Part shown: one piece after another, positions 3,201-63,600 of the stretch
Position numbering within the stretch: the stretch's first letter is position 1
Layout: every line of letters starts with the position of its first letter
Source of the DNA: Sipunculus nudus
Lineage: Eukaryota; Annelida; Sipuncula; Golfingiida; Sipunculidae
DNA: 64,000 nt
Assembly: GCA_026874595.1 (NCBI GenBank)
Contig: CM049309.1
Location: 306,501-370,500 of the forward strand
Direction of reading: 5' to 3'
Position numbers and translations under genes: made by a program
The notes under the pieces: generated by a model
The model's database searches: none
What the model was told of the DNA's origin: nothing
Seen by the model: only the letters and a program-made list of their open reading frames with translations

Positions 3201-6200
3201 CTCAGCTGACTTTCAGTCATGCTGAGCTATAGCGATCACTCTTTGTCCGTCGTCCGTCTGTCCGTCTGTCTGTCCGTCTGTCCGTTAACCTGGCACAAAT
3301 CGTAACCGCTGGACTTAGAATCTTGTAACTTTACATTCTGAGAGGTCAATGAAAAATCTCCTTGGAAACCAGAAATTAGGTCTCTGTTACCCATATCCTT
3401 CGAGCTATTGGGCCCCAAAGTATCCCCCAGAATAGTCAAAATTTTCATACAAAAACTTTAATATCTCATTAACTACATCACTGATGGTCATGATTTTTGG
3501 CATACATATTTATGATGAGATGTTTCATCAGTTCCTGCAGATTGGTGGCGCCACCTGTATTTTTAGATTTTTTACGAATTTTTTTCTCTATTTTTAAGAC
3601 CTTTAAAAATGTGAACAACTGTTAACAGGGCACAAATCATAAAGACTGGACCTAGAATCTTCATTCTTGACACAGTGAGAGACCTATGAAAAGTCTCCAT
3701 GGAAACCAGAAATTAGGTCTCTGTTACCCAAATCCTTTGAGCTATGGGGCCCCAAAGTACCCCCCAGAATAGTGAAAAATTTCATACAAAAACTTCAATA
3801 TCTCATTAACTACATCACTGATGGTCATGATTTTTGGCATACATATTGATCATGAGATGTTTCATCAGTTTCTGCAGACTGGTGGCGCCACCTGTATTTT
3901 TCGATTCTTTACGAATTGTTTTCTCTGTTTTTGAGGTCTTTTAAAATGTGGACATCTTTTAACAGGGCACAAATCGTTAAGACTGGATCTAGAATCTTCA
4001 TTCTTGACACAGTGAGAGACCTATGAAAAGTCTCCATGGAAACCTGAAATAAGGTCTCCGTTACCCATATCATTTGAGCTGTGGGGCTCCCAATTACCCC
4101 CCAGAATAATGGAAAATTTGATTTAAAAAAACTGCAACATCTCAATAACTACAATACAGATGGTCATGATTTTTGGCATACATATTGATCAAGAGGTGTT
4201 CCATCATTTCCTGCAGACTGGTGGCGCCACCTGTATTTTTTCAAATTTTTACAATATTTTTTTCTCTATTTATGAGAACTTTAAGGATGTAATTATCTGT
4301 CAACAAGGTACAAATTGTAATGACTTGACCTAGAATCTTTATTCTTGACACACAGGGAGACCCATGAAAAGTCTCCATGGACACCTGAAATTAGGTCTCT
4401 GTTACCCATATCCTTAGAGCTATGGCACTCCAAAGTACAGCTCGGAATAATGGAACATTTGATACATAAGCTGAAGTATCTGAACAACTTATGCAGAGAT
4501 CACCATAATTGTTTGCATGGATATTGATCATGGAGTGTTTCATCAGTTTTTGCAGACTGGTGGCACTACCTGTATTTGTTTGGGTTTTTAGCTCAGCTGA
4601 CTGTAAGTCATCTGAGCTATAGCAATCACTCTTTGTCCGTCGTCCGTCCGTCTGTCCGTCCGTCTGTCCATCTATCCGTTAACCTGGCACAAATCGTATC
4701 GCTTGACCTAGAATCTTGTAACTTGACATTCTGAGAGGTCCATGAAAAATCTCCTTGGAAACCAGAAATCAGGTCTCTGTTACCCATATCCTTCAAGCTA
4801 TGGGGCCCCAAAGTACCCCCCAGAATAGTAAAAAATTTCATACAAAATCTTCAATATCTCATTAACTACAACACTGATGGTCATGATTTTTGGCATACAT
4901 ATTGATCATGAGATGTTCCATTAGTTCCTGCAGACTTGTGGCGCCACCTGAATTTTTTTCTCTATTTTTGAGACCTTTTAAAATGTGGACATCTGTTAAC
5001 AGGGCACAAATCGTAAAGACTGGACCTAGAATCTTTATTCCTGAAATTCTGAGAGACCTATGAAAAGTCTCCATGGAAACTAGAAATTAGGTCTCTATTA
5101 CCCATATCCTTCAAGCTATGGGGCCCCAAAGTACTCCCCAGAATAGTGAAAAATTTCATACAAAAACTTCAATATCTCATTAACTACATCACTGATGGTC
5201 ATGATTTTTGGCATACATATTAATCATGCGATGTTTCATCAGTTTCTGCAGACTGGTGGCGCAACCTATATTTTTCGATTTTTTACGAATTGTTTTCTCT
5301 GTTTTTGAGGTCTTTTAAAATGTGGACATCTTTTAACAGGGCACAAATCGTTAAGACTGGATCTAGAATCTTCATTCTTGACACAGTGAGAGACCTATGA
5401 AAAGTCTCCATGGAAACCAGAAATTAGGTCTCTGTTACCCAAATCCTTTGAGCTATGGGGCCCTAAAGTACCCCCCAGAATAGTGAAAAATTTCATACAA
5501 AAACTTCAATATCTCATTAACTACATCACTGATGGTCATGATTTTTGGCATACATATTGATCATGAGATGTTTCATCAGTTTCTGCAGACTGGTGGCGCC
5601 ACCTGTATTTTTCGATTCTTTACGAATTGTTTTCTCTGTTTTTGAGGTCTTTTAAAATGTGGACATCTTTTAACAGGGCACAAATCGTTAAGACTGGATC
5701 TAGAATCTTCATTCTTGACACAGTGAGAGACCTATGAAAAGTCTCCATGGAAACCTGAAATAAGGTCTCCGTTACCCATATCATTTGAGCTGTGGGGCTC
5801 CCAATTACCCCCCAGAATAATGGAAAATTTGATTTAAAAAAACTGCAACATCTCAATAACTACAATACAGATGGTCATGATTTTTGGCATACATATTGAT
5901 CAAGAGGTGTTCCATCATTTCCTGCAGACTGGTGGCGCCACCTGTATTTTTTCAAATTTTTACAATATTTTTTTCTCTATTTATGAGAACTTTAAGGATG
6001 TAATTATCTGTCAACAAGGTACAAATTGTAATGACTTGACCTAGAATCTTTATTCTTGACACACAGGGAGACCCATGAAAAGTCTCCATGGACACCTGAA
6101 ATTAGGTCTCTGTTACCCATATCCTTAGAGCTATGGCACTCCAAAGTACAGCTCGGAATAATGGAACATTTGATACATAAGCTGAAGTATCTGAACAACT

Positions 6201-9200
6201 TATGCAGAGATCACCATAATTGTTTGCATGGATATTGATCATGGAGTGTTTCATCAGTTTTTGCAGACTGGTGGCACTACCTGTATTTGTTTGGGTTTTT
6301 AGCTCAGCTGACTGTAAGTCATCTGAGCTATAGCAATCACTCTTTGTCCGTCGTCCGTCCGTCTGTCCGTCCGTCTGTCTGTCTATCCGTTAACCTGGCA
6401 CAAATCGTATCGCTTGACCTAGAATCTTGTAACTTGACATTCTGAGAGGTCCATGAAAAATCTCCTTGGAAACCAGAAATCAGGTCTCTGTTACCCATAT
6501 CCTTCAAGCTATGGGGCCCCAAAGTACCCCCCAGAATAGTAAAAAATTTCATACAAAATCTTCAATATCTCATTAACTACAACACTGATGGTCATGATTT
6601 TTGGCATACATATTGATCATGAGATGTTCCATTAGTTCCTGCAGACTTGTGGCGCCACCTGAATTTTTTTCTCTATTTTTGAGACCTTTTAAAATGTGGA
6701 CATCTGTTAACAGGGCACAAATCGTAAAGACTGGACCTAGAATCTTTATTCCTGAAATTCTGAGAGACCTATGAAAAGTCTCCATGGAAACTAGAAATTA
6801 GGTCTCTATTACCCATATCCTTCAAGCTATGGGGCCCCAAAGTACTCCCCAGAATAGTGAAAAATTTCATACAAAAACTTCAATATCTCATTAACTACAT
6901 CACTGATGGTCATGATTTTTGGCATACATATTAATCATGCGATGTTTCATCAGTTTCTGCAGACTGGTGGCGCAACCTATATTTTTCGATTTTTTACGAA
7001 TTGTTTTCTCTGTTTTTGAGGTCTTTTAAAATGTGGACATCTTTTAACAGGGCACAAATCGTTAAGACTGGATCTAGAATCTTCATTCTTGACACAGTGA
7101 GAGACCTATGAAAAGTCTCCATGGAAACCAGAAATTAGGTCTCTGTTACCCAAATCCTTTGAGCTATGGGGCCCTAAAGTACCCCCCAGAATAGTGAAAA
7201 ATTTCATACAAAAACTTCAATATCTCATTAACTACATCACTGATGGTCATGATTTTTGGCATACATATTGATCATGAGATGTTTCATCAGTTTCTGCAGA
7301 CTGGTGGCGCCACCTGTATTTTTCGATTCTTTACGAATTGTTTTCTCTGTTTTTGAGGTCTTTTAAAATGTGGACATCTTTTAACAGGGCACAAATCGTT
7401 AAGACTGGATCTAGAATCTTCATTCTTGACACAGTGAGAGACCTATGAAAAGTCTCCATGGAAACCTGAAATAAGGTCTCCGTTACCCATATCATTTGAG
7501 CTGTGGGGCTCCCAATTACCCCCCAGAATAATGGAAAATTTGATTTAAAAAAACTGCAACATCTCAATAACTACAATACAGATGGTCATGATTTTTGGCA
7601 TACATATTGATCAAGAGGTGTTCCATCATTTCCTGCAGACTGGTGGCGCCACCTGTATTTTTTCAAATTTTTACAATATTTTTTTCTCTATTTATGAGAA
7701 CTTTAAGGATGTAATTATCTGTCAACAAGGTACAAATTGTAATGACTTGACCTAGAATCTTTATTCTTGACACACAGGGAGACCCATGAAAAGTCTCCAT
7801 GGACACCTGAAATTAGGTCTCTGTTACCCATATCCTTAGAGCTATGGCACTCCAAAGTACAGCTCGGAATAATGGAACATTTGATACATAAGCTGAAGTA
7901 TCTGAACAACTTATGCAGAGATCACCATAATTGTTTGCATGGATATTGATCATGGAGTGTTTCATCAGTTTTTGCAGACTGGTGGCACTACCTGTATTTG
8001 TTTGGGTTTTTAGCTCAGCTGACTGTAAGTCATCTGAGCTATAGCAATCACTCTTTGTCCGTCGTCCGTCCGTCTGTCCGTCCGTCTGTCCGTCTATCCG
8101 TTAACCTGGCACAAATCGTATCGCTTGACCTAGAATCTTGTAACTTGACATTCTGAGAGGTCCATGAAAAATCTCCTTGGAAACCAGAAATCAGGTCTCT
8201 GTTACCCATATCCTTCAAGCTATGGGGCCCCAAAGTACCCCCCAGAATAGTAAAAAATTTCATACAAAATCTTCAATATCTCATTAACTACAACACTGAT
8301 GGTCATGATTTTTGGCATACATATTGATCATGAGATGTTCCATTAGTTCCTGCAGACTTGTGGCGCCACCTGAATTTTTTTCTCTATTTTTGAGACCTTT
8401 TAAAATGTGGACATCTGTTAACAGGGCACAAATCGTAAAGACTGGACCTAGAATCTTTATTCCTGAAATTCTGAGAGACCTATGAAAAGTCTCCATGGAA
8501 ACTAGAAATTAGGTCTCTAATACCCATATCCTTCAAGCTATGGGGCCCCAAAGTACTCCCAAGAATAGTGAAAAATTTCATACAAAAAATTCAATATCTC
8601 ATTAACTACATCACTGATGGTCATGATTTTTGGCATACATATTAATCATGCGATGTTTCATCAGTTTCTGCAGACTGGTGGCGCAACCTATATTTTTCGA
8701 TTTTTTACGAATTGTTTTCTTTGTTTTTGAGGTCTTTTAAAATGTGGACATCTTTTAACAGGGCACAAATCGTTAAGACTGGATCTAGAATCTTCATTCT
8801 TGACACAGTGAGAGACCTATGAAAAGTCTCCATGGAAACCAAAAATTAGGTCTCTGTTACCCATATCCTTCGAGCTATGAGGCCCCAAAGTACCCCCCAG
8901 AATAGTGAAAAATTTCATACAAAAACTTCAATATCTCATTAACTACATCACTGATGGTCATGATTTTTGGCATACATATTAATCATGAGATGTTTCATCA
9001 GTTTCTGCAGACTGCGGACGCCATCTGTATTTTTTCGATTTTTTACGATTTTTTTCTCTATTTTTAAGACCTTTAAGGATGTGGTTATGTGTCAACAGGG
9101 TACAAATTGTAACAACTGGACCTAGAATCTTCATTCTTGTCATGCAAGGAGGCCCATGAAAAGTGTCTGTGGAAACCTTAAATTAGTTCTCTGTTTCCCA

Positions 9201-12200
9201 TATCCTTCAAGCTATAGGACTCCGAAGTATCCCTCAGAATAATGGACAATTTGATACAAAAGCTAAAAGTATCTGACCAACTAATGCAGAGGTCACCATG
9301 ATTCTTTACATGCATATTGATTATGGAGTGTTTCATCAGTTTCTTCAGACTTATGGTGCAACCTATATTTTTATTAAATTTTTTTGAATTTTTTTCTCTA
9401 TTTTTGAGACCTTTAAGGATGCTGTCATCTGTTAACATGGCACAAATTGTAACAACTGGACCTAGAATCTTCATTCTTGTCATGCAAGGAGGCCCGTGAG
9501 AGTGTCTTTGGAAATCTGAAATTAGGTCTCTGTTACCCATATCCTTCACGCTATAGGACTCCGAAGTATCCCTCAGAATAATGGAAAATTTGATTCAAAA
9601 GCTGAAGTATCTGAACAATTAATGCAGAAATCACTATGATTCTTTGCATGGATGATGACCATTAAGTGTTTTTATTAGTTTCTGCAGACTGGTGGAACCA
9701 CCTGTATTTTTTTTAAAGTTTACGCATTTTTTCCCATATTTTGAGATATATAAATTCAGAAACAATCTTGGCTTATTCTTTAATCTGTTTGATGCTTCAG
9801 TTGAATGGGTATATACTACCATTCAGATGATAAAATTGCCTTTTGCAAATCTCTTCCCAGTCAGCTGAGCGTCATGACCCATGGGTCACTTGTTTTTATC
9901 CAAAACTCATATCTGAGGTCATATAAACAATATACATGATGTAATAAGCATAATTGTTTACAAGGAAAGTCATGATACCTTCTGCATTTGATGTTAAAAA
10001 AAGCATCCATCATTGTATCCCTAGACAAAGTTGGGATACTATGGTTTAAGCATGGTCGCGCCGCTGCAGAGATTTCATTTGGACGCAATACGTTAGCTGA
10101 TAACTCAAAAAATATTTTACAGATCTTTACCAAACTTGACATGTGCATAGATATGGGTGAGAGGACAAAGCCTATAAAAAATGGGGTCATGACCTTTTCT
10201 AGGAGAGTGACCTTGGCCTTGAATAGATCCATTTTGGGTAAAATCACACAAATTCATAAATATCTCAGAAAAATCTTTCATGGATTGATAAAAAAATCAA
10301 CTTGACCGAAGATCTAGGGCAGCGTTGACAGGTATTGGAAACTGGTGGCGCCACCTGTTATCCTTTACTTGTTGTTGTGCAGTTTAATACCCCCATCATT
10401 GGCACCTAACAGTACTGTGAGCATTATAAGTCAAAAACTAATGGACAGATTTCTTTCATATTATGCATATACATAGACATAGGTTATGGGAGGATGTGTA
10501 TTAAAATTGGGATCATGACCTTGAATATTGCCATATATGGTGAAATTCACACAAAATCATATATATCTTAATAAGGGATGCATGGATCGGTCCAAAAATC
10601 AAACTGACTGAAGATCTTGGATAGCTTTGTCTTCTGTGGAAAACAGGTGGTGCCACCTTCTGTCCTTTTCTGGTTTTTTCGCACTTTTTAATACCTTATC
10701 ATTGCTGCTTGACAGTACTGAGCATTATAAGTCTAAAACTAAAGGACAGATTGGGCTGAAATTGTGCATGTCCGTTTATCTTGGATACCTCCATCTTGTA
10801 TTCAAGACTGGTGGTGCTATCTGCAATCGTTATTGTGTGACGTCATTCCATACATTTGCTTTTGGTGAAAATTATATATCCAGGGTGGTTCAAGGTATAG
10901 GTATTGGTCTGAAATTATTTGCTGCTGAAGATGGGGGCCTATTCTTAAAGGGGGGGGGGATTAATTGTCTGGGGATACTATGGCACCTGGTGCCAAGAAA
11001 TATCTAGTTGTATATAACTTCACATACATGACATCCCTTTTAGTTCACTCTGTGAACTTGCACACTTGTGCAGCGTCCATCGACTGTTACCAAATATCTC
11101 AGCAGCCGCTGCTGCTTTCACCACAAAACTTTGCAGACTTTTTAGCAAACCTGTGAGCTTAAGAGATGGTGTGGTGTTGTACATCATCTGTGCGTTAACC
11201 ATAGCTATCTCAAAAACAGCAGGAGCTAGCATCACCAAATTTTTTTGCATATAATCAGTCATCCAAAACACTATATCGGATTTTGTTTATTTTTTTTCTA
11301 ACTGCATTTTCTTAGATTTTATGGGGAAAAAGCTAAAAAAGCTTTAAAAATCTTCTTCTCCGAAACTGTCCAGCCAAATTGTCCAATATTTCACAGAAAT
11401 GATCCTTGGAACAATCTCTCTCAAGTTTGTTCGACAGGAGGTTGAACTTTGTCATCTGTCCAAAAAAGCATATAAAATTTAAATCTCAGAAACGGCTGGA
11501 GCTATCATCACCAAATTTAATGCCAATGATGGTCACATGAGTCATATCTGAAATTGAGGTATTGGTGGCGCCACCTGCATTGATCTGTTTTTTTACAAGC
11601 AAAAACGTAATTTTAGATTCTTCTAGCTTATACACTGTTTTATGATGAAACTGTTAAGCTGATTGGTTTAAACTTAACAAGAATTATTCTATGGTAGGGG
11701 GTCTGCCAGTTTTATAAGAATAGATTGGGTAATGCAGCTTTAAAAAAGTAGTGTAGCCAATTGAAAAGGCGTTCTGTGTTTGAAAACAGATTTGACAACA
11801 TGCCAAGTTTCAGCAGCCAAGTCAAGAGGTCACTCAGTACAACCAGGTGGGGTCCAGACATCACCATGGCAACTGACCTGGCTCTGTCTGGTGTCCAGAT
11901 AATGTGTCTAGATGTCTAGACACAGTGTCTAGACATTTAGACACCTAGTCTAAACGCAGAATGCCCAGATTAGAATTGTTGAAACTAAATCTTTTAACTG
12001 TTTGAAAAAACTTGGTTTGCATTTTTAGCGAATCTGTGAGCTTATGCAGTGGTGTAGCGTCGTTCTTCTTGCGTCATAGCTATCTCAAAAAGGGCAGGAG
12101 CTTGCATCACCAAATATTTTGCAAAGAATTTCTCATCTAATAAAAATTTTATCGGATTTTGCTAATTTCTTGGCTAACTGCTTTTTCTTAGATTTTATAG

Positions 12201-15200: not shown

Positions 15201-18200
15201 TCTCTGCAGTGATTTGACTAATTCACCTGAAATTTGGCATGCGTATACATCCTGGATAGCTTTTCTGATTTTGTGACAGGTGGCACCACCTACATTCACG
15301 TTTACGCTGCAGACATCCAAGCTCATATCTCGGGAACCGTTTGACCGATTGGGCCAAAATTTTGCATGTGTATAGATCTCACATAGCTCTTTATCATATG
15401 CAAAACTGGTGGCGCCACCTGCAGCCATTTTTGCACAGCTCCCGTCTGTTTGTCTGCCATGGGGTAAAATTACTCATATCTCGGCAGTGGTTTGACATAT
15501 CTGCCTCAAATTTTGCATATGTATACAACTCGGATGGCTTTCTGGATTTTGTGGTAGGTGGCGCAACCTACATACACCATTTGGCTGCAGACATCCATGC
15601 TAATATGCAACACTTCACTCTATTTCCCCTTGCCACTCAATCCATGCCTCACTTCACCCGCTCCACTCTGATTTAGGCGGATACACGTAGTCGCTTGTCG
15701 ACTACCCGTATTCTAGTTTCTGAATTGAACACTGCTGATAACACCGATCCAAGTTGTGTCATGTACTTTTATAATGTGCAAGGATTATACATAAGCATAA
15801 ACTTACTTAAAATTATAAGTCATGTTAGCATTAAATCAGAGGATTTCTTCTGTATTCAAAGGGATATATATTTGCGAGGGGATATAGTAACACCTCCATT
15901 CATGCATTCGTCTGTCTAAGTGCTGTCTGTCTGTCCTGAATTGGCTTGTGGATCTATTTTAAGCTTAACCGTTTCACCAAAATCTTTCTTCTTGCACGTA
16001 AGGCTCACTCACCTACAGATGAAGAACCCTATCCTTTTTCGGGTCAAAGGTCAAGACCACAGGACCCAGTCCATGAAAAAGCTTGTCAACCCATTTTAAG
16101 CCAAACTGTTTGTCCAAAACCTTTCATCTTGCACATGTGGCTTACCCACCTACGATTAAGAACTCTATCGATTTTGGGGTCATGGGGTCAAAGGTCAAGG
16201 CCACAGGACCCACTCCTTAAAAAAAAAAATGTGGACCCATTTCAAGCCAAACCTTTTGCAAAAAACTTTCATCTAGCACATATGGCTCACCCACCTACAG
16301 ATAAAGAACCCTATGGATTTTGGGGTCATGGGGTCAAAGGTCAAGGCCACAGGACCCACTTCTTGAAAAAAAGCTTGTTGACCCATTTTAAGCCTAACCG
16401 TTTGTCCAAAACGTTTCATCTTGCACATATGGCTCACTCACCTACAGATAAAGAACCCTATCGATTTTGGGGTCATGGGATCAAAGGTCAACGCCACAGG
16501 ACCCACTCCTTGAAAAAAGCTTTTGGACCCATTTTAAGCCAAACCATTTGACTTAAACCTTTCATCTTGCACATATGGCTCACCCATCCACAGATGAAGA
16601 ACCGTATCGATTTTGGGGTCACGGGGTCAAGATAAGGGCCACTGGACCCACTTCTTGTAAAAGCTTGTCGACCCATTTTAAGCCATACAGTTTGACCAAA
16701 ACCTTTCATCTTGCATAAATTGCTCACCCACCTACGGATAAAAAAACCCTATTGAGTTTTAGGTCACAGGGTCAAAGGTCAAAGTCACAGAGCTGCCCTC
16801 ATTTTCACACTTTGTAATACACACAATATAATTATGCTCCTGTGCAAGGGGATGCTCCTGTTTGCGGTGTTCTTGTTGCATTTTTTTCTGGCTAAGTCTG
16901 GCCCATTTTTTATTATATCCCATGGTTTATTTATTACCTGATTTTCAGAAAAGTAAATCCAGTAGAGATAAACCTGTGATTTTTGTTATCAGGGGAATCA
17001 ATCATTGTAATGCAAGAAGATTTATATTTAATGCAATACTTTCTACAAATTCCCATCATTTCAGGGCTATGAGACTTGAAGACTTAGAACCTGCTGCCAG
17101 TGATCCCCAGATGGCAGCACATACAAAACTAAAGCCTGCAGCGAATGCCACCTCTAAAGTAGAACCTAAGTCCATACCATCTCCCCCACAACAGAGCCAT
17201 GCAGCAGTTAAAACATCCCAGGCGATGACCTCTGACACTCAGCAAGCCATGTCTAACGGCATCACTACAGCTGACGAGCTCAGGGATGTGGTCAGGAACG
17301 AACTACGAGCAATCATGGAGGTAAAGTTTGAGGGAGAGTTTGAAGAAAGATTTAGTTTTTAAATTTTTAAAAATTTTCAGTGGGTTAACATTTTGTTTAC
17401 AGTTGGTAAATATTCATATCTTTTTCAATGGGTAAATATTCCTATATTTTTTTCAGTGGATAAATATTCATATCTTTTTCAGTGGGTAAATATATCTTTT
17501 CTTCAGTAGATAAATATTCCTATATTTTTGTGATTAAATATTCAGGTATTTTTTTCAGTTGGTAATTATTCATATAAATCTTTTCTTCAGTGGATAAATA
17601 CTGTAGTATGCTTTTTGTCCCAAAAAGAGAAATAATCGCGAAAATAAAACCTCTGTGAATAAGATACCTCATATACACAGGTGACTGGTCATATATAATA
17701 CATAGCCCAATGGCATTTGATGATAGTTATCCACATGACCATGATATATAGCCTCATTGGCATTTAATGTGTGTTATCCACATGACTAAGATATATAGCC
17801 TCATTGGCATTTAATGCATGTTAACCACACGACCATGATATATAGCCTCATTGGCATTTAATGCATATTAACCACATGATCATGATATATAACCTCATTG
17901 GCATTTAATGCATGTTAACCACATGACAATGATATATAGCCTCATTGGCATTTAATGCATGTTATCCACATGGCCATGATATATAGCCTCATTGGCATTT
18001 AATGCATGTTATCCACATGACCATGATTATACCCTTATTGGACTTTAATGTATGAATGAATGAATAGAAATTTACTCTGAAATAAAAGGCATCAGGCTCA
18101 TGGTTCCACAAAGAGCATGTGTTTAGCATCATAAAAATTCAACAATATCAAATTGTAACAGCATAACATGAACTAAAAAAATGCATTAAAACACAATGTT

Positions 18201-30200: not shown

Positions 30201-33200
30201 ACATGCCAGAATGATGTCAGTATTGCGTAATTGTTTTAAGTTATGGGCCCAAACATAATGCACTTTGTAAAAAGTCAAGAAATATATTTACTCCCTTAAC
30301 AAGGGCATTGCTGAAGCTAGAGATTTTTTTTGTCAGGGATGTAACATTATTTAATCAAGATTCAATTGAATACCCAAAATTAGTTCTGAATTTTTCAAAT
30401 TTTATAAGTTATTAGTATAAATATAAAATTAGTACCTTAAATTTTGCCCAACTGTGACCATGGCACGTTTGTGTCCTGTGAGCACTGTTGATATAATTTT
30501 CATATCATGCACACATTAGGATTTCAGCTTTTTAGTTTAGAAAGCTGAAAGAAATTGGCCAAAAATTGTAGCTTTTATTAATGTTTTTTATGAGACCCTG
30601 TCAGACTTTGGCTCTCTCCAGCCCCTCTTGAGTCACCTGTATGTTGACCTTGTTGACCTTTCATCAAATTATGCACGCTTGAGGCGAGGCATACAGGAAT
30701 CCAGGCAGCTTATGGCCAGCCACAGTTGATCCAGGTGTCCAACCCAACTCATCTAGTAGTTTTAACCAACAACATAACAATAAACAATAAATTAATAAAT
30801 TTTTATTGGTTTTTAATAACAAATTAAAGAAAAATAGAAAAGGAATTTGTTAGTTTATAATAACAGGAAATTAACTTGCAGTTACTGATGATATAAGAAT
30901 CTTGTATCGATGGGTAGAATGTCACATATTCCAAATAACACCATGCAGTCACCTATGGCATTTTTCAGTTCAATTTTAATAATAAAGAAGTAAATCATAT
31001 TATTCATTACTAATCATTAGGGATCATATGAAGGAAATTAATGATAGACAAAGATGCAGTTGATAATATTAATCTAGATTCCTACTGTGTCTAGTGTGTA
31101 CATTGATGTGAAATTAGTCCAAAATGAATTTTTTACAGTTATTTTTTAATATAAATAAAAGCCATAAAACCAGGTACTTATGATCATTATTTAAATGTGT
31201 GAATTTTGTATATTCTGGATTCTCAACATCATTGGTTGGTGAAACTGAATAAATACCAGACATGGTGCTAATACTTTGTAATTATATTTAAATACGAATA
31301 TGATTATGTACTCCATTATAAAATTTCTTGCATAAAGAATAGGAATTCAGGTAAAAATGAAAGTATATGAATACTCGTGCAAATACCTTCAAAATGTATT
31401 CATGAATGCATTCATGAATATATTCTTTAAAATTATTTTAATAATCATATCAGTTATATTTCAATTAAAAAAATCATGATTCTCTTATTATTTTTTATAA
31501 GAATTATATTTGGGACAATATTTGTAATTTTTTTTAATAAATAGTTAAACTCTTATATTATATGTTCTGCTTATAAGTTATTTGGCCAAGTCAAAATCTG
31601 TGTGACAATAGTACTCCATTTGTTAATAAAATAAATGAAATCAATCCTCTTCCCTGTCTCCAAAGGTACTATCAAAATCATACATAAGCTAAACAACAAC
31701 AACTCATAATACAGCTTATATTTATTACCACACAAAACCAGCATGTGCCTCATTTCTAAATAATATTTTTTTATCATATATAACAGCTGAGCGTCGTGAC
31801 CCATAGGTCCCTTGTTTTCCTGTAAGTACTGTGGATTTAATTTTCACAGCATGTGCACATAAGGATTTAATCTGTTAAAATCTGAAATTTGAAAATAAAA
31901 GCTACAAAATTCGGCTAGTTATTGAATTTTTTTTGGAGGCTCTTGTTGTATTCCCTTATATTGTCAAGCAGACCACTTTGGTCACTGTAGGTCATTCAGT
32001 GCAGCTCTCTATGCTCCCCAGACTGTTGGCATAATGTTTGAGCTTGATCAGGCTGTCTGCAGTTAATACCATATCACAGGGAGCCTTTTCCTCTCCCCCC
32101 CCCCCCACCCCATTCTGTTGACAGACCTGTACTATGAACTAGATGAATCTTAAAATCAACATTTTTTTCAGCAAGAGCAGTAACAACGGAGACCCCTCCC
32201 CCCACCCACCCCTTCAATACACAGGACTAATAAACAAGATGAATCTTATTATTTTAATGTTAAATAAATTCATTTTGATGAGACTTGGCCAATTTTGATA
32301 TTTTAAAGAAAAAAATTTCAGGAATTTAATCCTTATATTCCAATGTGATAAAATATCAGGATCTAATGTAAGTGCTAACTGACAAGATTTAAGAAGATAA
32401 AAATACTTTGTAGCATTTCATTCATATCTCTAAAAGTTGGCAGGTCCTAGGTGTGAATAACACTGTTAACTTAGTGTTAAAATTAGGAATATTGGTCAAA
32501 CTTTGTGGGATTAATTGTATCGCCAGACATAGTCTGGAGATACTATGGTTTAGGCACGGTCGCGCCGCCGCCGCCGCAGAGATTTCTTTTGGACACAATA
32601 ACTCAAAAAATATTTCACGGATCTTTACCAAACTTGGTATATGTATAGATATGGGTGAGAGGACGACGCCTATATAAAATGAGGTCATGACCTCAACTAG
32701 GAGAGTGACCTTGACCTTGAATAGGTTCAATTTTTGGGAAAATCACACAAATTCTTAAATATCTCAAGAAAACCTGCATGGATTGATCCCAAAATCAAGT
32801 TGATCGAAGATCATGGATAGGGTTGTCATGTTCCAGAAACTGGTGGCGCCACCTATTATTCTTAATTGTTTTCATGCCGTTTAATATCCCCAAAATTGCT
32901 ACTTGACAGTACTGTGAGCATTATAAGTCAAAAACTAATGGACAGATTTCTTTCATATTATGCAAATACATAGATATGGGTTATGGGATGATGTTTATTT
33001 AAATTGGGGTCATGACCTTTCCTATGAGAGTGGCCTTGACCTTGAATATTGCCATATATGATGAAAATTACACAAAATCATTAATATCTCAATAAGGGAT
33101 GCATGCATTGGTCCAAAAATCAACTTGACCGAAGATCTTGGATAGTATTGTCATGTACCAGAAACAGGTGGCGCCACCTGTTATTCTTTTACTTGTTTTG

Positions 33201-36200
33201 TGCCGTTTAATACCCCATCATTGCCATTTATCAGTACTGTGAGCATTATAAGTCAAAAACTAATGGACAAATTTCTTTCATATTATGCATATACATGGAT
33301 ATGGGTTATAGGATAATGTTTATTTGAATAGGGGTCATGACCTTTCCAATGAGTGGCCTTGACCTTGAATATTGCCATATATGGTGAAAATCACACAAAA
33401 TCATTAATTTCTCAATAAGGGATGGATTGATTGGTCCAAAAATCAACTTGAACGAAGATCTTGGATAGTGTTGTCATGTACGGGAAACAGGTGGTGCCAC
33501 CTGTTATTCTTTTACTCGTTTTTGTGCCGTTTAATACCCCATTATTGCCACTTAACAGTATTGTGAGCATTATAAGTCAAAAACTAATGGACAGATTTCT
33601 TGCATATACATAGACATGGGTTAGGGGATGATGTATATTGAAATTTGGATCATGACCTTTTCTATGAGAATGACCTTTTCTATGAGTGTGGTCTGATATT
33701 AATTGTTGCTGAAGATGGGGGGCCTATTCTTAAAGGGGGGGGGGGGGTTAATTGTCTGGGGATACTATGGCACCTGCGGTGCCAAGAAATATCTAGTTTT
33801 TAACTCATATGGGGCCATATATTTAACTTTTGAAAACTTAATACCTTCACACATTATTTGTTTATGAAATGTTACTTTTATATAACACTTACTGTAGGTC
33901 TATTTGTTCCCTTGGTGCATCACTAAATGGTTTAGCTCATGTCCATTATTCTATAATTTACAGTTTCATTTTAGCAGGGCCATTTTCTCATAGCTTTTCT
34001 AATGATACAACACATGAAAAACCAAAATAAATAAAAATATTTTGCAGTGACTAATATTTTCCAAAATTCAGCTGAGTGATGTGACCCATAGGTCCCTTGT
34101 TTCTTAATTCTATTTTGTAGGATTTCTTTCAGGTTTTACGATTTTGAGCTCAGTTGACTGTAAGTCATTGTTTCCTCTTAGTTAAAAAAATGTATTTCCT
34201 TAACCATGGTGTCAATATATGCTTCTGAAGAAGGGGCCCTGCTGTGGTTGCTTTTATGTTTGCGGGGGTTTCACATTTGCGATTTTCACAAAGGGGAAAT
34301 TACTTTGGAAAAAAAAACCTTCCTAAATAAGATGCCACATCTGCACAGGTAATTTATTCTATAGATTCAGTGGCATCTCAATATAGATAATAATACCAAG
34401 ACTGTATTATATCTGCCAATATTCATGAAGAATCCGCCTGCTCAAAGTTCTTTTAGCTCCGTGTGCAATTGTTAAAATTTTGTGTACATATTAGGTAACT
34501 GATATAATTGTTAGGTACATTGTGTAAGTACATATTAGGTAACTAATATAATTGTTTGGTACATTGTGTAAGTTACTGTACATATTAGGTAACTGATAAA
34601 ATTGTTAGATACATTGTGTAAGTTACTGAACATAGTAAATAAGTAACTGATATAATTGTTAGGTACATTGTGTCAGTACATATTAGGTAACTGATATAAT
34701 TGTTGGTTACATTGTGTAAGTTACCGTAAATCTTGTTTTATGGCCGCACGTCTATTTATAGCCGCACCCTGAGTTTGCAAGGTCTCTTAAAGGAGCTCCC
34801 ACTAAGGTCCGAATACCCAAAACCCCCCTTAAAGGCCGCACCCTGACTCCGTCTCTGGCCATAGGGTAAGATTATCAGCTGCACGTAGCAAAATAAATCA
34901 CGACAAAGCTGCTTTAATGAAGACTAGAATAAAAATATATTTAACGTTGCGATAGGGACAAAATATCTGTATGTTACTAACGACTTTTGCACATGGATTG
35001 GCAGGCATTAATCAGAAAAAGAAAGTTTCCCTGAACGATCATTTCGTTTGAATGGTGGTTAAGCAAAACGATTCTTGTATGCATCAAAACACTTCTTTGC
35101 ATGTATGTGCAATTGTCAAAGACCATAGTATGAACACTGAATTGAGGTTTATATGTACATTCATTGAAGCAAAAAGCCTGAATACTATCCACTATTACGC
35201 ACCATCACGCAGTAGCATTCAGGGGGCGATATGATGGCTAAGACTGCTGAAACTGTCAGATTTTCAACCTGCAGAAACCTGAATCACGGCTCGTGGTATA
35301 CATATAAAAATTAAATGTAGAACCTTGACATGTATATATATAACATATATGTACATATCTAACTTATTATAAAAAATCTTGGTAATTGTCACCAAATAAT
35401 ACGGTTAAAACAACCCTGCTGTAACACAGCGGCCTACTTTGTTGGGCATGGTCAAGCAACATTGAAATAAATGCCTACTTTAAACTCATTTGCAGCATTA
35501 TTTAGCAACGATTATTTGTTTAGAAAGTAAAATGAATAAAAAGCTGACATCGTAAAGAGTTGCTGACGATCGTTTTAAAATAACGTTTGAGTGACGCAAT
35601 GTGTTGAAACGCCCTGGTGTTCTGCTGAGAATATTTTGAACGGCTGTATGCGGTGGGTGGTAAACAGAACAGCCACCTATTCCATCCCAGTGTGCCTTGC
35701 GCGAAGGCTACCTTGACAAGATGGCTCCCCACACGGAAACTTTCTTGAGGAAAAAAACTTGCTTACCTCTACCAGCCATTTTAATTTCACATTAAAATCA
35801 CTCGTTTTCACGCGTCATGTTTGCTATTCATGCTTATCTCGACAAGGTAACTTCAGTTATTTTATTATTCAGTTGATTTGACCAGCCATGTTTCAAACGC
35901 ATCAGCAAATTGTGACATGGAGCGATGTCAACGTACGATGTGACGATGATAATACCGAAGTAACTGGTATGAAAATGATTCGAATCTTCCGAGTAATTCA
36001 AGAAATGGAATTTTCATCATAGATTAAGATTTCAAATTATTACTTTTAGAATAAAAATATACAGTGACTTTAAATGGATCAGCAGAATATTTCTATCCAA
36101 AATATATTGGAAAATCAGTAGCAAACAAGAATACGGCACGGCATATAAAATCTGTATATTCACCAAATTCCATCGGCTGTAGTGATGTGTTATACCATTT

Positions 36201-39200: not shown

Positions 39201-42200
39201 GAATATATTACATTTATTTTTTTTTTAATATAAATAAAAGCCATAAAACCAGGTACTTATGATCATTATTTAAATGTGTGAATTTTGTATATTCTGGATT
39301 CTCAACATCATTGTTTGGTGAAAACTAGACAAATACCAGACATGGTGCAAATACTTTGCAATTGTATTTAAATACGAATATGAATTTGTACTCCATTATA
39401 AAATTTCTTGCATAAAGAATGGGAATTCAGGTAAAAATGAAAGTATATGAATACCAGTGCAAATACCATCAAAATGTATTCATGAATGCATTCATGAATA
39501 TATTCTTTAATATTATTTAAATAATCATTTAAGTTATATTTCATTTTAAAAAATCATACAATTCTCTTATTATTTTAAATAAAAATTATATTTGGGACAA
39601 TATTTGTCATTTTTTTTAATAAATAGTTAAACTTATATTATATGTTCTGCTTATAAGTTATATGACCAAGTCAAAATCTGTGTTACAGTAGTACTCCATT
39701 TGTTAATAAAATAAATGAAATCAGTCCTCTTCCCTGTCTCCAAAGGTACTATCAAAATCATACATAAGCTAAACAACAACTCATAATACAGCTTATATTT
39801 ATTACCACACAAAACCAGCATGTGCCTCATTTCTAAATAATATTTTTTTATCATATATAACAGCTGAGTGCCGTGACCCATAGGTCCCTTGTTCTCAAAT
39901 TCACAGGGATGATTGGTGTCTATGAGGGCTCCAGACCTATTGAATTACAGACAAGTCTGAATACCCGTATGGCCACCAGGCCATCAGAGCACAATTGGTG
40001 AATTTCTCTCGCATGCAATATCTCAAAGAGAATACACGTGATCTTTCTCAAATTCACAGAGATGATTAGTGCCTTGAAAGCTTCAGCTCTATTGAATTAC
40101 AGACTCATCCATAAACAGATATGGCCCCCAGAGCAAAATCATTAAAATGGGGAACCGAAAATTTATTCGTATTTCCGAAATATATTTCAAGTTAGTAAAA
40201 ACCTAAAATGAGTATTGTAATTATGAGTCATAAGGCTGCAGTCATGTGTAAAGCCCAGTGGTGACCCTAATTAATTAGTTCTGGGGCGATATTGTCGCCG
40301 GGCCAAAGTTGTGAAAACTACAGCTGGCCCCGCACATTCGGCCCCCTGTACCCCTAGTAAGCGATTGAGCAGTTTATCCGAGAGCACTTGTGTGTTATCA
40401 ACAACATCTCGTTTGTACGCAAGCAAGCATAGTTCGTCGGCAACGGACAGGATGTCATGCCAAATAACTTAGCAATTTACTCGCATCAGAATTGGTGAGG
40501 TATAATTCATTAAACGCTTGTGCTCGAGCAGCTTTTATATGTCCCGGTCTTCAATTACGTAGATCGATAAGAAACACCGTGTTCCTTGGCATTGTCATTT
40601 GACCTTTCCCTTCAGTGAATTTGATGAAAAAACGAGCACGGACGTATCCTGAAAGCAGGTTAGACTGATCTTTGCCAATTATACTTAGCAATAATCCTAT
40701 ATTTTTATACTTCCAGGTCTTCAATAACGAATATCGAAAAGATACACTGTGTTCCCCGGGTAAAATGGCATTGAGTTAATCATTAACTGATGTACTAACT
40801 TGCTGCTAGACCCTTGTCCGCATTTCCGAATGTTCGTTTTTACTAACAAAACGCTTGTCCCCCGACGCTTTCGGAAAAACGGCGCTCTACTGTATTATGA
40901 ATTATTTCAGGTACATTTGATGAATATCTTGACAAGCAGCATGAACTAGGCTCGGCAGCAGATAACAGTGCCAAGCTGCATTACAAGACTGTCAAAGCAC
41001 TGTCTCCAAGAAAGGTGAGTGTGAACAAACATGTCATGCTCACTCACTGACTTCACATATTCTTTTATAAAAGCCTTTCATTTTAGTGTTGAGGACATTA
41101 GTTTGGTGATGTCATTCTATCTAATATAACTTATAACAGTCAGCTGGGGAAATACAAGGGCTAATGTTCTTAGCATTTGCTTGCTGGATTTTCTTCAGAT
41201 TCTTTAAAATTTTTCCATATGCTTAAAGATCCTTTTATATTTTTTAATGTTTTTTAAGGCCTTGACAGTTCATAGCTGATTTTGACAATTTCATCAATAA
41301 GACCTTGACTCTGAGGACTAGCCATGACAGACCAGGAGGGCCAAGGCCTGCTTTAACCTGTCTCTAATCTCATTATCGTCTTTGTAAAACAGTCTGTTTG
41401 AAGATTATGCATAACACAAGACAGTTAGAAAGTTGGGCAGTGGGTGGTCAAGGAAGCTGTACAAAAAAGTGGGCTCTTGAAAATCGTAATCAATGTCCTT
41501 GAGAAATCTGGCAGCAGCTTGAAAATGAAAGAAAAATGTAGAAAACCTGGTTGAAATAATTCTCATCTTTATCACCAGTTACTTTCTAGTTGTAGTTTAA
41601 AGTACTTTGTTATATGTTGTGATAATGTCTTTTTTTTGCAACTCTTAACTAATGGGACATAATGTATGAGCATAAGATAAGTGTAAATGCATCACATGAG
41701 TGGTTTGGTTTTTGTCAACACCTGAAGAATAAGTGTACCAAGTACCTGAAAATGTGCATATCCATAGATCTTGGACTCCTCCATCTTGTACTCAAGACTG
41801 GTTGCACCATCTGCAATTGTTTTGGTGTGGCGTCCATCTGTACATGTGCTTTGGGTGAAAATTGTTCATATCTCCAGAGTGGTTCAAGGTATAGGTTTGA
41901 AATTTGGCATGTCCATCTATCTTGGAAAGTTTTCTTGTAAACCAGACAGGTGGCGCCACCTATCTTCCCCTTTCTGTAGAATAAATTAATGCCCTTTTCT
42001 CAAGAGTAATTCACCATATTGGCCCCCATATTTGGTGAAAATATTGTTTCTCAAGTTGATAGATGGAAGAAACAATAGTCGCTTGCTGAGAGTCAGCATG
42101 TGCTGCTGGAGATGGGAGGCCTATTCCTTAGGGGGAGGGGGGATTAATTGTCTGGGGATACAATGGCACCTATGGTGCCAGGAAATATTTAGTTATTTCA

Positions 42201-56861: not shown

Positions 56862-57796
56862 AGCGAACCTGTGAGCTTATGCGATGGCGCAGCGTCGTCC
56901 GTAAGCCGTCAGCCATCCGCCGTCCAGGGCTGGCTTTCGGCCGTCCATGGCTGTAAGTCAGAAACCGTCAGAGCTAGCAGCTCCAAATTACATGTAAGAA
57001 TTAGTCACATGTGAAATTTGTTGCCCTGGAGCTAAGTAATGGGTATCTGCATTAATTTAGATTTTATAGAGAAAAAGCTTAAAAACCTTTAAAAAATTTC
57101 TTCTCTGAAACTCTATAGCAAAATTGTCCAATATTTCACAGAAATGATCCCTGGAACAATCTCTCCCAAGTTTGTTCGAATGGTTCCAGTTCGAAGATTT
57201 TTGGCGGAGTTACAGGAGGTTGAACTTAGTCATCTGTCCAAAAAAGCACACTAAAATTAAAATCTCAGAAACTGCTAGAGCTATAATCACCAAATTTTAT
57301 ACCAATGATTATCACATATGTCATATCTGATTTTGAGGTATTGGTGGCGCCACCTACATTGATGTGTTTTTTACAAGCGAAAATGTAATTTCAAACTCTA
57401 CTAGCTTATACACTGATTTATGATGAAACTGTAAAGCTGATTGGTTTAAACTTTACAAGAATTATTCTATGGGTTCTGCCAGTTTTTATAAGAATAGATT
57501 GGGTAAATACAGCTTAAAAAAAGCAGTGTATCCATTTGAAAAAGGCTTTCTGTATTTGAAAACAGATTTGACAACATGCTGAGTTTCAGCAACCAAGTCA
57601 AGAGGTCACTCAGTACAAACAGGTGGGGTCCAGACATCACCATGGCAACTGACCTGGCTCTGGGGGAGTGTGGAGACAATGTGTCTAGACGTCTAGACAC
57701 AGCGTCTAGACATCTAGACACAATGTTGAGATGCAGAATTCCCAGATTATTGGAACTATATCCTTCAACTGTTTGAAAAAACTTGGTTTGCATTTT
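56862..57796 (+). mobile_element. Family D element, copy 3 (most complete)
   Basis: Left end AGCGAACCTGTGAGCTTATG at 56862, then a GTCCGTAAGCCGTCAGCC tract; right end CTTGGTTTGCATTTT near 57795. It contains GGTGGCGCCACC at 57343 and the 20-bp palindrome GTGTCTAGACGTCTAGACAC at 57681-57700, followed at once by GTCTAGACATCTAGACAC. Confidence 0.6.
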
Positions 57797-57799
57797 AAG

Positions 57800-59680
57800 C
57801 GAATTGGGTTTATCCTCAGTTCAGATGTGAACTGCAGCCCCCTCATTTTTGGTTGACCTCTGACCTTTCCTCGCTGCCCAGGGTCCATTTGTGTGTCTGT
57901 TTCCACACATAAACCAGCATATCTCGGGAACCGTTTGACCGATCAGGCTAAAAATTTTGCACAAATGTAGCCCTTTGATAGCTTTATAACATACACTAAA
58001 AGTGGTGGCGCCACCTGCAACCATTTTTGCACAGCCTTCATCTATTCATCTGCCTTGGGACAATATCACTCATATTTCAGTAGTGGTTTGACTTATCCAC
58101 CTAAAATTTTGCAGGTTTATACATCCTGGACAGCCTTCTCGATTTTATGATAGGTGGTGCCACCTAAATTCACTTTTACTCTGCAGACATCCAAGCTCAT
58201 ATCTCGGGAACCGTTTGAATGATTTGGCCAAAATTTTGCATGTGTATAGATCTCACATAGCTCTTCATCATAGGCAAAACTGGTGGTGCTACGTGCAACC
58301 ATTTATGCACAGTGTCCATCTGTTCATCTGCCTTGGGATAAAATCACTCATATCTCAGCAGTGGTTTGACTTATCCACCTGAAATTTTGCAGGTTTATAC
58401 ATCCTGGACAGCTTTCTTGATTTATGACAGGTGGCGCTACCAACATTCAGGTTTACTCTGCAGACATCCAAGCTCATATCTCGGGAACCGTTTGACTGAT
58501 TGGGCTAAAATTTTGCATGTGTATAGATCTCACATAGCTCTTCATCATAGGCAAAACTGGTGGCGCCCCCTGCAACCATAAATGCACAGCACAGATCTGT
58601 TCATCTGCCTTCGGATAAAATCACTCTTATCTCAGCAGTGGTTTGATATATCCACCTGAAATTTTGCAGGTTTAAACATCCTGGAAAGCTTTCTCGATTT
58701 TATGACAGGTGGCGCCACCTACATTCAGGTTTACACTGCAGACATTCAAGCTCATATCTCGGGAACCATTTGACCGATTGGGCTAAACTTTTGCATGTGT
58801 ATAGATCTCACATACCTCTTCATCATTGGCAAAACTGTTGGTGCCACCTGCATCCTATTATGCACAGCGTCCATCTGTTCATCTGCCTTGGGATAAAATC
58901 ACTCATATCTCAGCAGTGGTTTGACTTATCCACCTGAAATTTTGCAGGTTTATACCTGCATCCTGGACAGCCTTCTCGATTTTATGACAGGTGGCGCCAC
59001 CTACATTCACGTTTACTCTGCAGACATTCAAGCTCATATCTCGGGAACCATTTGACCGATTGGGCTAAAATTTTGCATGTGTATAGATCTCACATACCTC
59101 TTCATCATAGGCAAACTGGTGGTGCCACCTGCAACCTATTATGCACAGCGTCCATCTGTTCATCTACCTTGGGATAAAATCACTCATATCTCAGCAGTGG
59201 TTTGACTTATCCACCTGAAATTTTGCAGGTTTATACATGCATCCTGGACAGCCTTCTCGATTTTATGACAGGTGTCACCACCTACATTCACATTTACTCT
59301 TCCGACATCCAAGCTCATATCTCGGGAACCATTTGAGCGATTGGGCCAAAAGTTTGCATGTTTATAGATCTCACAAAGCTCTTCATCATAGGCAAACTGG
59401 TGGGGCCACCTGCAACCATTTTTGCACAGCGTCCATCTGTTCATCTGTGTCACTCATATTTCAGTAGTGGTTTGACTTTTCCACCTAAAATTTTGCAGGT
59501 TTATACATCCTGGACAATTTTCTTGATTTTATGACAGGTGGCACCACCGACATTCACGTTTACGCTGCAGACATCAATGCTGACATACAACACACCTCAC
59601 TCTATTCCCCTTGCCACTTAATCCATGCCTCACTTCACCCGTCCCACTCTGATTTCTGTTGTCTACCCATATTCTAGTTT
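57800..59680 (+). mobile_element. Family C element, copy 3, left end lost
   Basis: About seven core half-unit pairs with CATATCTCGGGAACCGTTTG, GATCTCACATAGCTC and GGTGGCGCCACC or variants. It ends in a degraded right end GTCTACCCATATTCTAGT at 59679. The GTATCCGCC head is missing; the sequence begins within the head region right after the family D right end. Confidence 0.6.
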
Positions 59681-59850: not shown

Positions 59851-60650
59851 TATCTTTAATTGATAAGCCACACTTACTGTATGCCTATCCCCAGGGTTTT
59901 GGGCTGATTCTTGTCTGTTGTATGCCCCATCTGTCAAAGACTGGCTTCCTCACACTCCTCTGGTTTATGAATTCTTACAAGGTGTTCACTTCAATTATTC
60001 TCAGCCACGTATCTTTACTCCTTCATTCTGTCTTAATATCTTACTCCACCATTTCCGGCGCTTCTTTTTCACCTGTCTCATAATTTGGTGTTTCTTCTTG
60101 CTCTTGCCTTGGCAGGGCATCGGGCTTAGCTGCCTGCTGGTTTTTTCTGCAACTCTTCTTTTCCCCCTGTTTTATCGTTAAATCAGCCATCTGTTGCCCC
60201 TGCGGTTCTATGGCTCCTTCCTGCTCTCCCTAACGGGCATTTTAGGTTTGAAGCCACAATCTGTCCAGTTCATGCCTTTTGCTCTACCTCCAGGCGAACA
60301 TGTCTCACTGGAAGACCTTTCTTCCTTCAATGTACCCGCTAATGATGACAGAGCAATCGCTACCTCCTTGCTCACTTATCTGGCATCTCAATTTCCCAGT
60401 TCCAAAAGAAGGGCTTCTGGAAATCTCCTTTCATGACATTTTATCTAAATGATATCCATCTACAGGCCTCTGGTCTGTAATCTGGTCCTGTAGTTGCTGC
60501 TGGTGCGGTTCTTCAATTCTCACCACTGTCTACCATTCCAGCCACTACTTCGACGATTCCTGCCAAGTCTTCTAGGCACGAGTTGTCTCCGTTCAGTTCA
60601 CATCTTCCTTAAAGGCTGGTATCTCCCCTCCCCATGGGTTACCTATTATT
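59851..60650 (+). other. Unassigned region of higher GC
   Basis: Contains Pro/Ser/Leu-rich open frames, including 60194-60436 with PFALPPGEHVSLEDLSSFNV. I could not assign it to the gene by phase or to a known retroelement. It could be a decayed retrotransposon fragment. Confidence 0.3.
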
Positions 60651-60656
60651 TTTTTA

Positions 60657-63600
60657 TTAGCTCAGCTGACTATAAGTCATCTGAGCTATAGTCGTGGTCC
60701 ATTGTCCGTCGTCCGTCCGTCTGTCCGTCCGTCCGTCCGTCCGTCCGTCCGTAGATGTGGCACGTTTTGAAACCGTAAGACCTAGGAATCCAAAATTCGG
60801 CATAATGTTAGATGTCCCCAAGATCTCCTACCAAGCCGAAAACTGGGTCTTTGCGACTTCGTTCCTTTGAGAAATTAAGGAAAAACCTCAATTTTTTTAT
60901 TAAAAACCTATTTTCACACTTCAGGACTGCCTAATATCAAAATGACTCATCTGTTTTTCCTCATATTTACCATAAATATTCTTCTATATAGTTCCTATGT
61001 ACATGCCTGAAATTATGTCTGTATTATATAATTGTATCCGCCAAAACAGAGTTTTGCGGATACTATGTTTTCAGCTGGCCGCCGCCGCCGCCGCCGCGTA
61101 GGTGTCCGGAGAACTCCTCCGTAACCGCTGGGCGGAATTTTACGAAACCCGGGATTATGTTCGGGTCACATGTGAACTGCTGCGCCCCGATTTTGTTTTG
61201 ACCTCTGACCTTTCCTTTGCGCTCTGCGTCCGTTTGTGCGTCTGTTTCCACACATAAACCCACATATCTCGGGAACCGTTTGACCGATCAGGAAAATTTT
61301 TTTGCACAAATGTAGCCCTCGGAGAGCTTTATAACATACACCAAAAATGGTGGCGCCACCTGCAACCATGTTTGCACAGTGTCCATCTGTTCGTCTGCCT
61401 TGGGTTAAAATCACTCAAATCTCTGCAGTGACTTGACTAATTCACCTGAAATTGGGCATGCGTAAACATCCTGGATAGCTTTTCTGATTTTATGACAGGT
61501 GGCGCCACCTACATTCACGTTTACGCTGCAGACATCCAAGCTCATATCTCTGGAACCGTTTGACCGATCAGGAAAATTCTTTTGCACAAATGTAGCCCTT
61601 GGAGAGCTTTATAACATACACCAAAAATGGTGGCGCCACCTGCAACCATGTTTGCACAGTGTCCATCTGTTCGTCTGCCTTGGGCTAAAATCACTCATAT
61701 CTCTGCAGTGACTTGACTAATTCACCTGAAATTGGGCATGCGTATACATCCTGGATAGCTTTTCTGATTTTATGACAGGTGGCGCCACCTACATTCACGT
61801 TTACGCTGCAGACATCCAAGCTCATATCTTGGGAACCGTTTGACCGATCAGGAAAATTCTTTTGCACAAATGTAGCCCTTGGAGAGCTTTATAACATACA
61901 CCAAAAATGGTGGCGCTACCTGCAACCATGTTTGCACAGTGTCCATCTGTTTGTCTGCCTTTGGTTAAAATCACTCATATCTCTGCAGTGACTTGACTAA
62001 TTCACCTGAAATTTGGCATGCGTATACATCCTGGATAGCTTTTCTGATTTTATGACAGGTGGCGCCACCTACATTCACGTTTACGCTGCAGACATCCAAG
62101 CTCATACCTCGGTAACCGTTTGACCAATCAGGAAAATCTTTTTGCACAAATGTAGCCCTTGGAGAGCTTTATAACATACACCGAAAATGGTGGCACCACC
62201 TGCAACCATGTTTGCACAGTGTCCATCTGTTCGTCTGCCTTGGGTTAAAATCACTCATATCTCTGCAGTGGTTTGACTAATTCACCTGAAATTCGGCATG
62301 CTTATACATCCTGGATAGCTTTTCTGATTTTATGACAGGTGGCGCCACCTACAATCAAGTTTACGCTGCAGACATCCAAGCTCATATCTAGGGAACCGTT
62401 TGACCGATTGGGCCAAAATTTTGCATGTGTATAAATCTCACATAGCTCTCTATCATATGCAAAACTGGTGGCGCCACCTGCAGCCATGTTTGCACAGCTC
62501 CCATCTGTTTGTCTGCCATGGGATAAAATCACTCATATCTCGGCAGTGGTTTGACATATCTGCCTAAAATTTTGCAAGTTTATACATCCCCGACAGCTCT
62601 CTTGATTTTATGACAGGTGGCGCCACCTGCATTCTAGTTTATGCAGCAGATATCCAAGCTCATATCTTGGGAACCGTTTGACCGATTGGGCCAAAGTTTT
62701 GCATGTGTATAGAGCTTTCTGGATTTTTTCGTAGGTAGCGCAACCTACATACACAATTTGGCTGCAGACATCCATGCTAATATGCAACACTTCACCCGTT
62801 CCACTCTGATTTAGGCGGATACAAGTAGTCGCTTGTCGACTACCCGTATTCTAGTTTAAAAAAGTTATGAGCCCAAACATAATGCATTTTGTAAAAAATC
62901 AGGAAAGATATTTGATCACTTAACACAAAATATGTTAAAGCTATGGACTTTTTTTCCAGTAATATAACTTTAATTAATCAAAATTAAATTGTATACCCAA
63001 AATTAGATCAAAATCTTTTAAATTTTTTAAAATATTTACAAAAATAAAAAATTGGTACCTTAAATTTAGCCCAACTTTGACCATGGCACATTTTTTTCCT
63101 GTAAGTACTGTGGATTTAATTTTCACAGTATGTTTTTGTTAGCATTTTGTCTGTTAACACCAAAAATTTGAAACCAGTTGATCAAAAACTGTAGATTTTA
63201 TTCAAGTTTTCAAACACCATGGAACATATTGTTTACATCAAGCTAGTGTTATGCAGTTTGCAAGAGCTCAGCTCCCCAGCTTCAGCTCTCAGTTCCTTAA
63301 ATTTGGCATACAATTAGATGTCTCCAAAATCCCTAACCATGCCAAGAATTTGGTCACTAGGACTTAATACCTTCGAGATATTAATGAAAAACTTCATTTT
63401 TCCATTAAAAACCCATTGTTACACTTCAAGACTGCCTAATATCAAAACAACTGATCTGACTTTAATCATATATAATATACATATTTTTCTATACATTCTC
63501 TATGCACATGCCAGATATGATGTCAGTATTGCGTAACTGTTTTAAGTTATGGGCGCAAACATTATGCACTTTGTAAAAAATCAAGAAATAATTTACTCCC

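Follow-up and report, generated by a model that had tools for sequence, protein, structure and literature searches.

A near-invariant palindromic box at the edge of a repeat module in HINE-like elements of Sipunculus nudus

Introduction

Among the closest described systems to the repeats reported here are several from molluscs. Cg_HINE elements of Crassostrea gigas consist of non-autonomous Helentron ends around short arrays resembling satellite DNA (satDNA) (PMC7492417), and Helitron-associated satDNAs dominate oyster satellitomes (PMC11136912). The divergent monomers of BIV160, Cg170 and pearl sit in Helitron-type elements and keep short motifs, two of them conserved, and CENP-B-box-like motifs of satellites are mentioned in the same work (PMC5139131); all three papers are cited throughout from excerpts. 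Here we describe a 12-bp palindrome, GGTGGCGCCACC, that together with the T following it (hereafter the box) recurs in repeats of the sipunculan Sipunculus nudus. The analysis centers on a 64,000-nucleotide stretch of contig CM049309.1 (C4:306501-370500, hereafter the window) of the 1.43 Gb, 153-contig genome. A sequence-only reading of the window had noted the palindrome in four repeat families, A1, B, C and D.

Like Cg_HINE, the carrier elements combine a left subterminal repeat and inverted repeat, a GTCC-type microsatellite, a right subterminal repeat and a 3' palindrome, and related flanks enclose unlike cores. In Cg_HINE, however, the palindrome lies in the right flank, whereas here one lies in every core module; the relevant whole-length similarity, as excerpted, is confined to four clusters there (PMC7492417), whereas 12 families share a module here. 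Compared with BIV160, Cg170 and pearl by description rather than by motif letters, the repeats differ in having one near-invariant 13-bp edge box (PMC5139131), which may be comparable to the motifs of Cg170 and BIV160. The setting is known, but the excerpted related literature describes neither such a near-invariant 13-bp edge box shared by 12 families nor its copy number. A text search of one literature collection for the 12-mer, the single search aimed at finding the box in print, matched only an unrelated chitinase paper.

Results and Discussion

The palindrome recurs in arrays and throughout the genome

Allowing up to two mismatches, the palindrome occupies 56 places in the window (27 exact, 19 with one mismatch and 10 with two), where 0.46 are expected and the largest count in 100 shuffles was 3. 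By eye, 53 of these fall in the arrays of the sequence-only reading or their close kin, leaving those at 23742, 32558 and 51007. The array-by-array recurrence which that reading described was borne out: spacings are mostly 337-339 bp in A1 (range 318-378) and 302-325 bp in B, alternate between about 149 and 129 bp in C, and each of the two D copies holds a single motif. Its remark that several variants are CpG-to-TpG or CpA changes also held, these being the commonest single changes.

Genome-wide, GGTGGCGCCACCT yielded 76,127 forward and 76,139 reverse matches versus 6 and 5 for a reversed-pattern control; the distinct places number fewer than 152,266 because 12-mers with A before and T after count on both strands. 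With up to one mismatch the 12-mer occurs at 218,178 places (control, 575). Rfam at its gathering threshold gave zero matches within the window. Outside this genome, a pattern search of viral and prokaryote contigs gave one viral-contig and six prokaryote-contig matches; none carried the module described below by profile (best E 2.3), and they are therefore taken as chance.

The box is the 3' edge of a shared repeat module

Motif places were collected from the window, from 24 loci of contig C1 found through exact GGTGGCGCCACCT matches, and from fifteen 10-kb pieces, termed random, at round coordinates on contigs other than contig C1. Clustering of 131 modules plus hand-picked ones (16 offered; 139 used in all) gave 12 families. 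Four clusters (14 of the 139) were kept out of these as chance or wrongly oriented, and the per-position counts still contain such rows.

For each family, the 92 bp upstream of the motif, with the motif itself removed, were scored with a profile built from the other 11 families, using dinucleotide shuffles as background. Each family supplied no more than 8 sequences for training and 6 for testing, with 60 to 360 shuffles; I, J and K were represented by one sequence and H and D by two. The upper median beat all shuffles in 12 of 12 families, so that the families, presented in the sequence-only reading as otherwise unrelated, prove homologous upstream. Individual copies varied: two of four G copies had no match to the upstream profile, and one of six B copies (1.9 bits) scored under its own best shuffle (2.5). 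Over the downstream 60 bp, shuffles were exceeded weakly and in E and F only, and direct comparison showed some downstream sequence in common among C, E and F. One ancestral core along the whole length, which that reading had named as fatal to its proposal, thus describes the upstream side; the downstream side is mostly not homologous. These profiles replaced a fixed-offset ungapped comparison of the flanks, in which small indels had hidden some of the homology. Between-family MAFFT identities were not counted as evidence, since chance clusters gave comparable figures (0.29-0.42).

The module carries ATATCTC at about -83, AAATTT at about -51 and TAT..ATC at about -37, followed by the palindrome and the T. 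Among exact motifs with enough flank, 81 of 82 cap a module match (27/27 in the window, 52/53 in the contig C1 loci and 2/2 in the random pieces), the profile behind this count having been trained partly on the same modules. A motif-blind scan with the upstream profile (E up to 1e-3; motif with at most 4 mismatches and within 14 bp of its expected place) found the motif at 68 of 71 matches, 58/60 in the window and 10/11 in the random pieces. At these matches two control motifs never came nearer than 5 mismatches. As its profile was built from motif-bearing families, the scan is no full census. Together these results show that the palindrome and its invariant T are the 3' edge of an ancient repeat module of about 105 bp common to several families.

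A lone exact motif without a module was seen at L026:387. Read by eye, the 3' end of an A-type HINE (GACCCATGGGTC, then reversed CTTGTT) stands a few bases before this box, and the arrangement looks like one element inserted into a module.

The box is conserved between families and decays within them

When every family is given the same weight, the 13 columns of the motif hold 1.61 bits per column, compared with 0.49 for the upstream module, 0.32 downstream and 0.70 for the best other 13-column upstream window. Within young families the picture differs. To follow decay, families were sampled by flank anchors and not by the motif, giving 62 rows from 100 matches listed and 53 (51 used) from another 100 listed, after repeats and rows of other length had been removed by eye; one B row, entered too short, fell to the length filter. 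Non-CpG motif sites differ from consensus at a rate of 0.023 in Ba versus 0.028 in the flank, and at 0.042 in Cb versus a flank mean of 0.077. The motif CpG pair decays fastest, differing in 0.117-0.169 of copies. Decayed fractions of the motif CpG, set against other CpGs that are few and motif-conditioned, are 0.25 versus 0.29-0.48 in Cb, 0.11 versus 0.25 in A1 and 0.29 versus 0.33 in B; Ca, at 0.35, has no other CpG for comparison. The suspicion that the motif is no better kept than its neighbors is therefore justified by the Ba and Cb rates within families and contradicted between families, where 1.61 bits stand against 0.70.

Resident copies within families decay roughly like neutral DNA. 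Combined with the conservation between families, this places the constraint on spreading lineages and not on resident copies, which argues against a host role of individual copies and for a role in element spread.

The simplest alternative is plain homology, in which the box was merely inherited with the module and seems conserved because the families were found through it. The upstream homology is real and the families were indeed gathered via the motif, but 13 adjacent columns held while the remaining module drifted, and the motif stands at nearly all motif-blind matches, even though the scan's profile came from motif-bearing families. We consider this account very improbable.

A nuclear protein may recognize the box

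The reading we prefer, with a probability of about one in two, is that the box is a candidate site for a sequence-specific nuclear protein that aids the spread of its carriers. A functional site, as the sequence-only reading had proposed, is the best explanation for 13 bp surviving while the module drifts. Tandem copies of the module, alone or within longer units, make up the central repeats of several HINE-like families. The box would be bound by a sequence-specific nuclear protein, most likely the host's, and binding would favor amplification or expression of the elements that carry it. Lineages losing the box would leave few descendants, and copies once inserted would be free to decay. The palindrome is preceded by A or T and followed by T; because this outer T makes the site asymmetric, a plain symmetric dimer is probably not what recognizes it.

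Several observations weigh against this proposal. Because the motif served to collect the families, and these in turn to train the profile, families lacking the motif may escape. Three motif-blind matches have no box, namely two B half-modules and one partial match in L043. The Cb flank median (0.032) lies under the motif rate. In subfamily Bb the left arm is altered to GGTAG or GATAG, with the motif differing at 0.100 versus 0.029 for the flank, and in family E the box ends in ATC; lineages with a broken arm have therefore multiplied.

Helentron central repeats are usually regarded as cargo. Conservation over 12 families combined with decay of copies suggests that this cargo is of consequence for the element carrying it. 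The box could also serve as a short oligonucleotide bait for fishing out the candidate factor and, were that factor architectural or regulatory, the elements would be a large source of its sites in the genome.

CTCF is one protein that could occupy such a site. The box would then be the docking core of the CTCF orthologue, and by spreading, the elements would have created CTCF-core sites in very large numbers. The CTCF core is AGRKGGCRS, which the box matches; on its minus strand the box is AGGTGGCGCCA, corresponding to the 3' half of a CTCF site, and the T after the palindrome is the base that this half-site demands. The genome has a CTCF orthologue at C11:67037578-67038510 (a single continuous match at 56% identity, E 4.9e-109; the next best has 41%) that, in an alignment by eye, keeps the helices of fingers 3 to 5. 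Scored with a JASPAR profile (full, 19 columns; half, columns 8-19), copies reach a median of 18.6 of 20.1 on the half profile, where the 99.9% level of the background is 17.1, and family H reaches 25.2 of 31.2 on the full one. The full-profile median, however, is 7.9, under the 99th percentile of random 52-mers (10.7); by rounded scores only about 15 of 70 exact copies pass 10.7, these being family H and about 13 others. The half-site has no need of the palindrome's far arm, and a half match is weak because many known motifs could be tried. Mouse B2 short interspersed elements (SINEs) spread CTCF sites, and the likeness is that a binding core is multiplied by an element, with a CTCF orthologue present here; the difference is that most copies here fail the full profile. 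On balance we regard CTCF docking as a long shot.

E2F, T-box, E-box/ZEB, NFI and RFX sites were dropped on their consensus alone. The E2F consensus, for example, is TTTSSCGC, and by eye the box is without the leading T run.

Many C2H2 zinc-finger reading frames match the CTCF query; among the matches listed, many lie on C16 and others on C7, C9 and C11. These frames may belong to an expanded family of DNA-binding proteins.

The arrays sit in HINE-like elements

The coordinates of the arrays and their carriers in the window are collected in Table 1. Element ends and array junctions were read by eye. A left subterminal repeat with an adjacent inverted repeat is present in A1, B1/B2, C1 and C3, and a right-hand copy of the subterminal repeat, with a palindrome or hairpin after it close to the 3' end, in A1, B, C1 and C3. 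These 3' structures are GACCCATGGGTC in A1, TGGCACC..GGTGCCA in B and GTAGTCG..CGACTAC in C1 and C3. The left flank holds a microsatellite, a GTCC tract in A1 and a CCG tract in B2 and C, and the satDNA-like tandem arrays are central. Element termini read CTAGTT or CTTGTT. HINE ends were recognized nowhere in repeat D and are partly missing in C2. We conclude that the A1, B and C arrays sit in HINE-like (non-autonomous Helentron) elements. The A1 array (3544-8688) is a higher-order repeat of nearly identical 1711-bp copies; this 1711-bp unit recurs elsewhere on the contig, at C4:1050449-1053658, some 0.74 Mb distant.

Table 1. Box-bearing features of the window
Feature	Coordinates	Strand	Content
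Module example, family Ca	15319..15420	+	upstream part 15319-15406; palindrome and T 15408-15420; profile E 2.1e-19; motif exact where expected
A1 array	3284..9702	+	one module in each unit of about 337 bp; motifs from 3544 to 9691; ends of HINE type at about 3197 and 9870 (by eye)
Element B1	10012..11009	+	B modules (motifs 10344 and 10646) followed by an E-type module at 10810 (3 mismatches)
Repeat D1	11299..12033	+	single module, motif 11564; 83.7% identical to 57044-57804
Element C1	14535..15719	+	6 modules, motifs 14852 to 15557
Element B2	32514..33801	+	motifs 32842, 33167 and 33490
E/F element	41717..42197	+	decayed box at 41800 in an E module, exact box at 41949 in an F module; right end as in B1 and B2
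Repeat D2	57044..57804	+	single module, motif 57343; abuts C2
Element C2	57807..59655	+	motifs 58004 to 59537; terminal features of C1/C3 incomplete
Element C3	61026..62857	+	motifs 61349 to 62734

With such carriers, the Helentron machinery itself, either Rep/helicase or an element-encoded endonuclease, might bind or cut the box. The HINE-like ends of the A1, B and C carriers fit this, as does a constraint acting on lineages only. Repeat D, however, has the box and no recognizable HINE ends, and the box lies in core repeats and not at termini. Helitron_like_N has 143 matches in the genome; in 8 loci at 5 of these, a small sample, there was neither motif nor module (best E 0.081), which counts against the Helentron-machinery site put forward in the sequence-only reading. 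A search of the same loci with ten end words found no A, B or C termini, and only TCTAGTT and ATATCTC occurred. We judge a site for the machinery unlikely. A Helitron-type 3' hairpin was also dropped as a candidate, since a loop-less 12-bp palindrome permits a 4-bp stem at best. Two of the Helitron_like_N loci, L055 and L057, have long reading frames and an upstream tandem repeat of their own (offsets apparently multiples of 69 bp), which is not the module.

In keeping with the earlier proposal that cores can be swapped, B1, B2 and the E/F element have their right end in common and unlike cores. The palindrome might be considered a rearrangement signal, akin to a CENP-B box, that makes repeat units more prone to expand or be exchanged. 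CENP-B-box-like motifs have reportedly been described in a study of nematode satDNAs. Like the CENP-B box, the palindrome is a short box retained where the tandem monomers have otherwise diverged; the CENP-B box differs in having 17 bp and another sequence, and the present arrays are short and dispersed in mobile elements. Homology between families stops at the box, and one A1 copy (L037:670) switches sequence right after it, apparently to a later part of the unit. In the satDNA phBglII400, a 12-bp palindrome is the site of 13 of the 16 breakpoints (PMC5139131). Against this, the nearest box is about 30 to 260 bp away from the array-to-flank junctions read in A1, B and C, so that the earlier suggestion of a recombination point fits the single switching copy and not the junctions. 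A rearrangement signal seems to us a doubtful explanation.

A diverged half-module in B units

B units carry a second, diverged half-module, with GGTCATGACC at 10185, 32683, 33008 and 33333 of the window. At profile-matched B half-modules, GGTCATGACC occupies the expected place of the box. Genome-wide, ATATCTC followed after 60-88 bp by GGTCATGACCT gave 26 and 23 matches on the two strands (control, 2 and 0). At 32682 the sequence reads AGGTCATGACCT, identical to the classical palindromic nuclear-receptor element.

A bolder idea is that the module is a transposon part with a palindromic slot recruiting a host chromatin protein, CTCF or another. Several Helentron lineages would thereby have planted on the order of a hundred thousand near-identical sites throughout the genome, and the slot would have switched from GGTGGCGCCACC to GGTCATGACC in the B half-modules as if changing partner. 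We hold this to be improbable. Readings beyond those named here share a small remainder of probability.

Other repeats in the window

Another dispersed repeat is present as two long copies, 29503-31819 and 37585-39896, that are 93% identical; partial copies of the 29503-31819 repeat lie at 24174-26067 and from 62847 on, adjoining GTCC tracts. Tandem arrays without a box occupy 45504-46684 (unit about 181 bp), 47593-48286 (about 143 bp) and 15944-16790 (about 146 bp).

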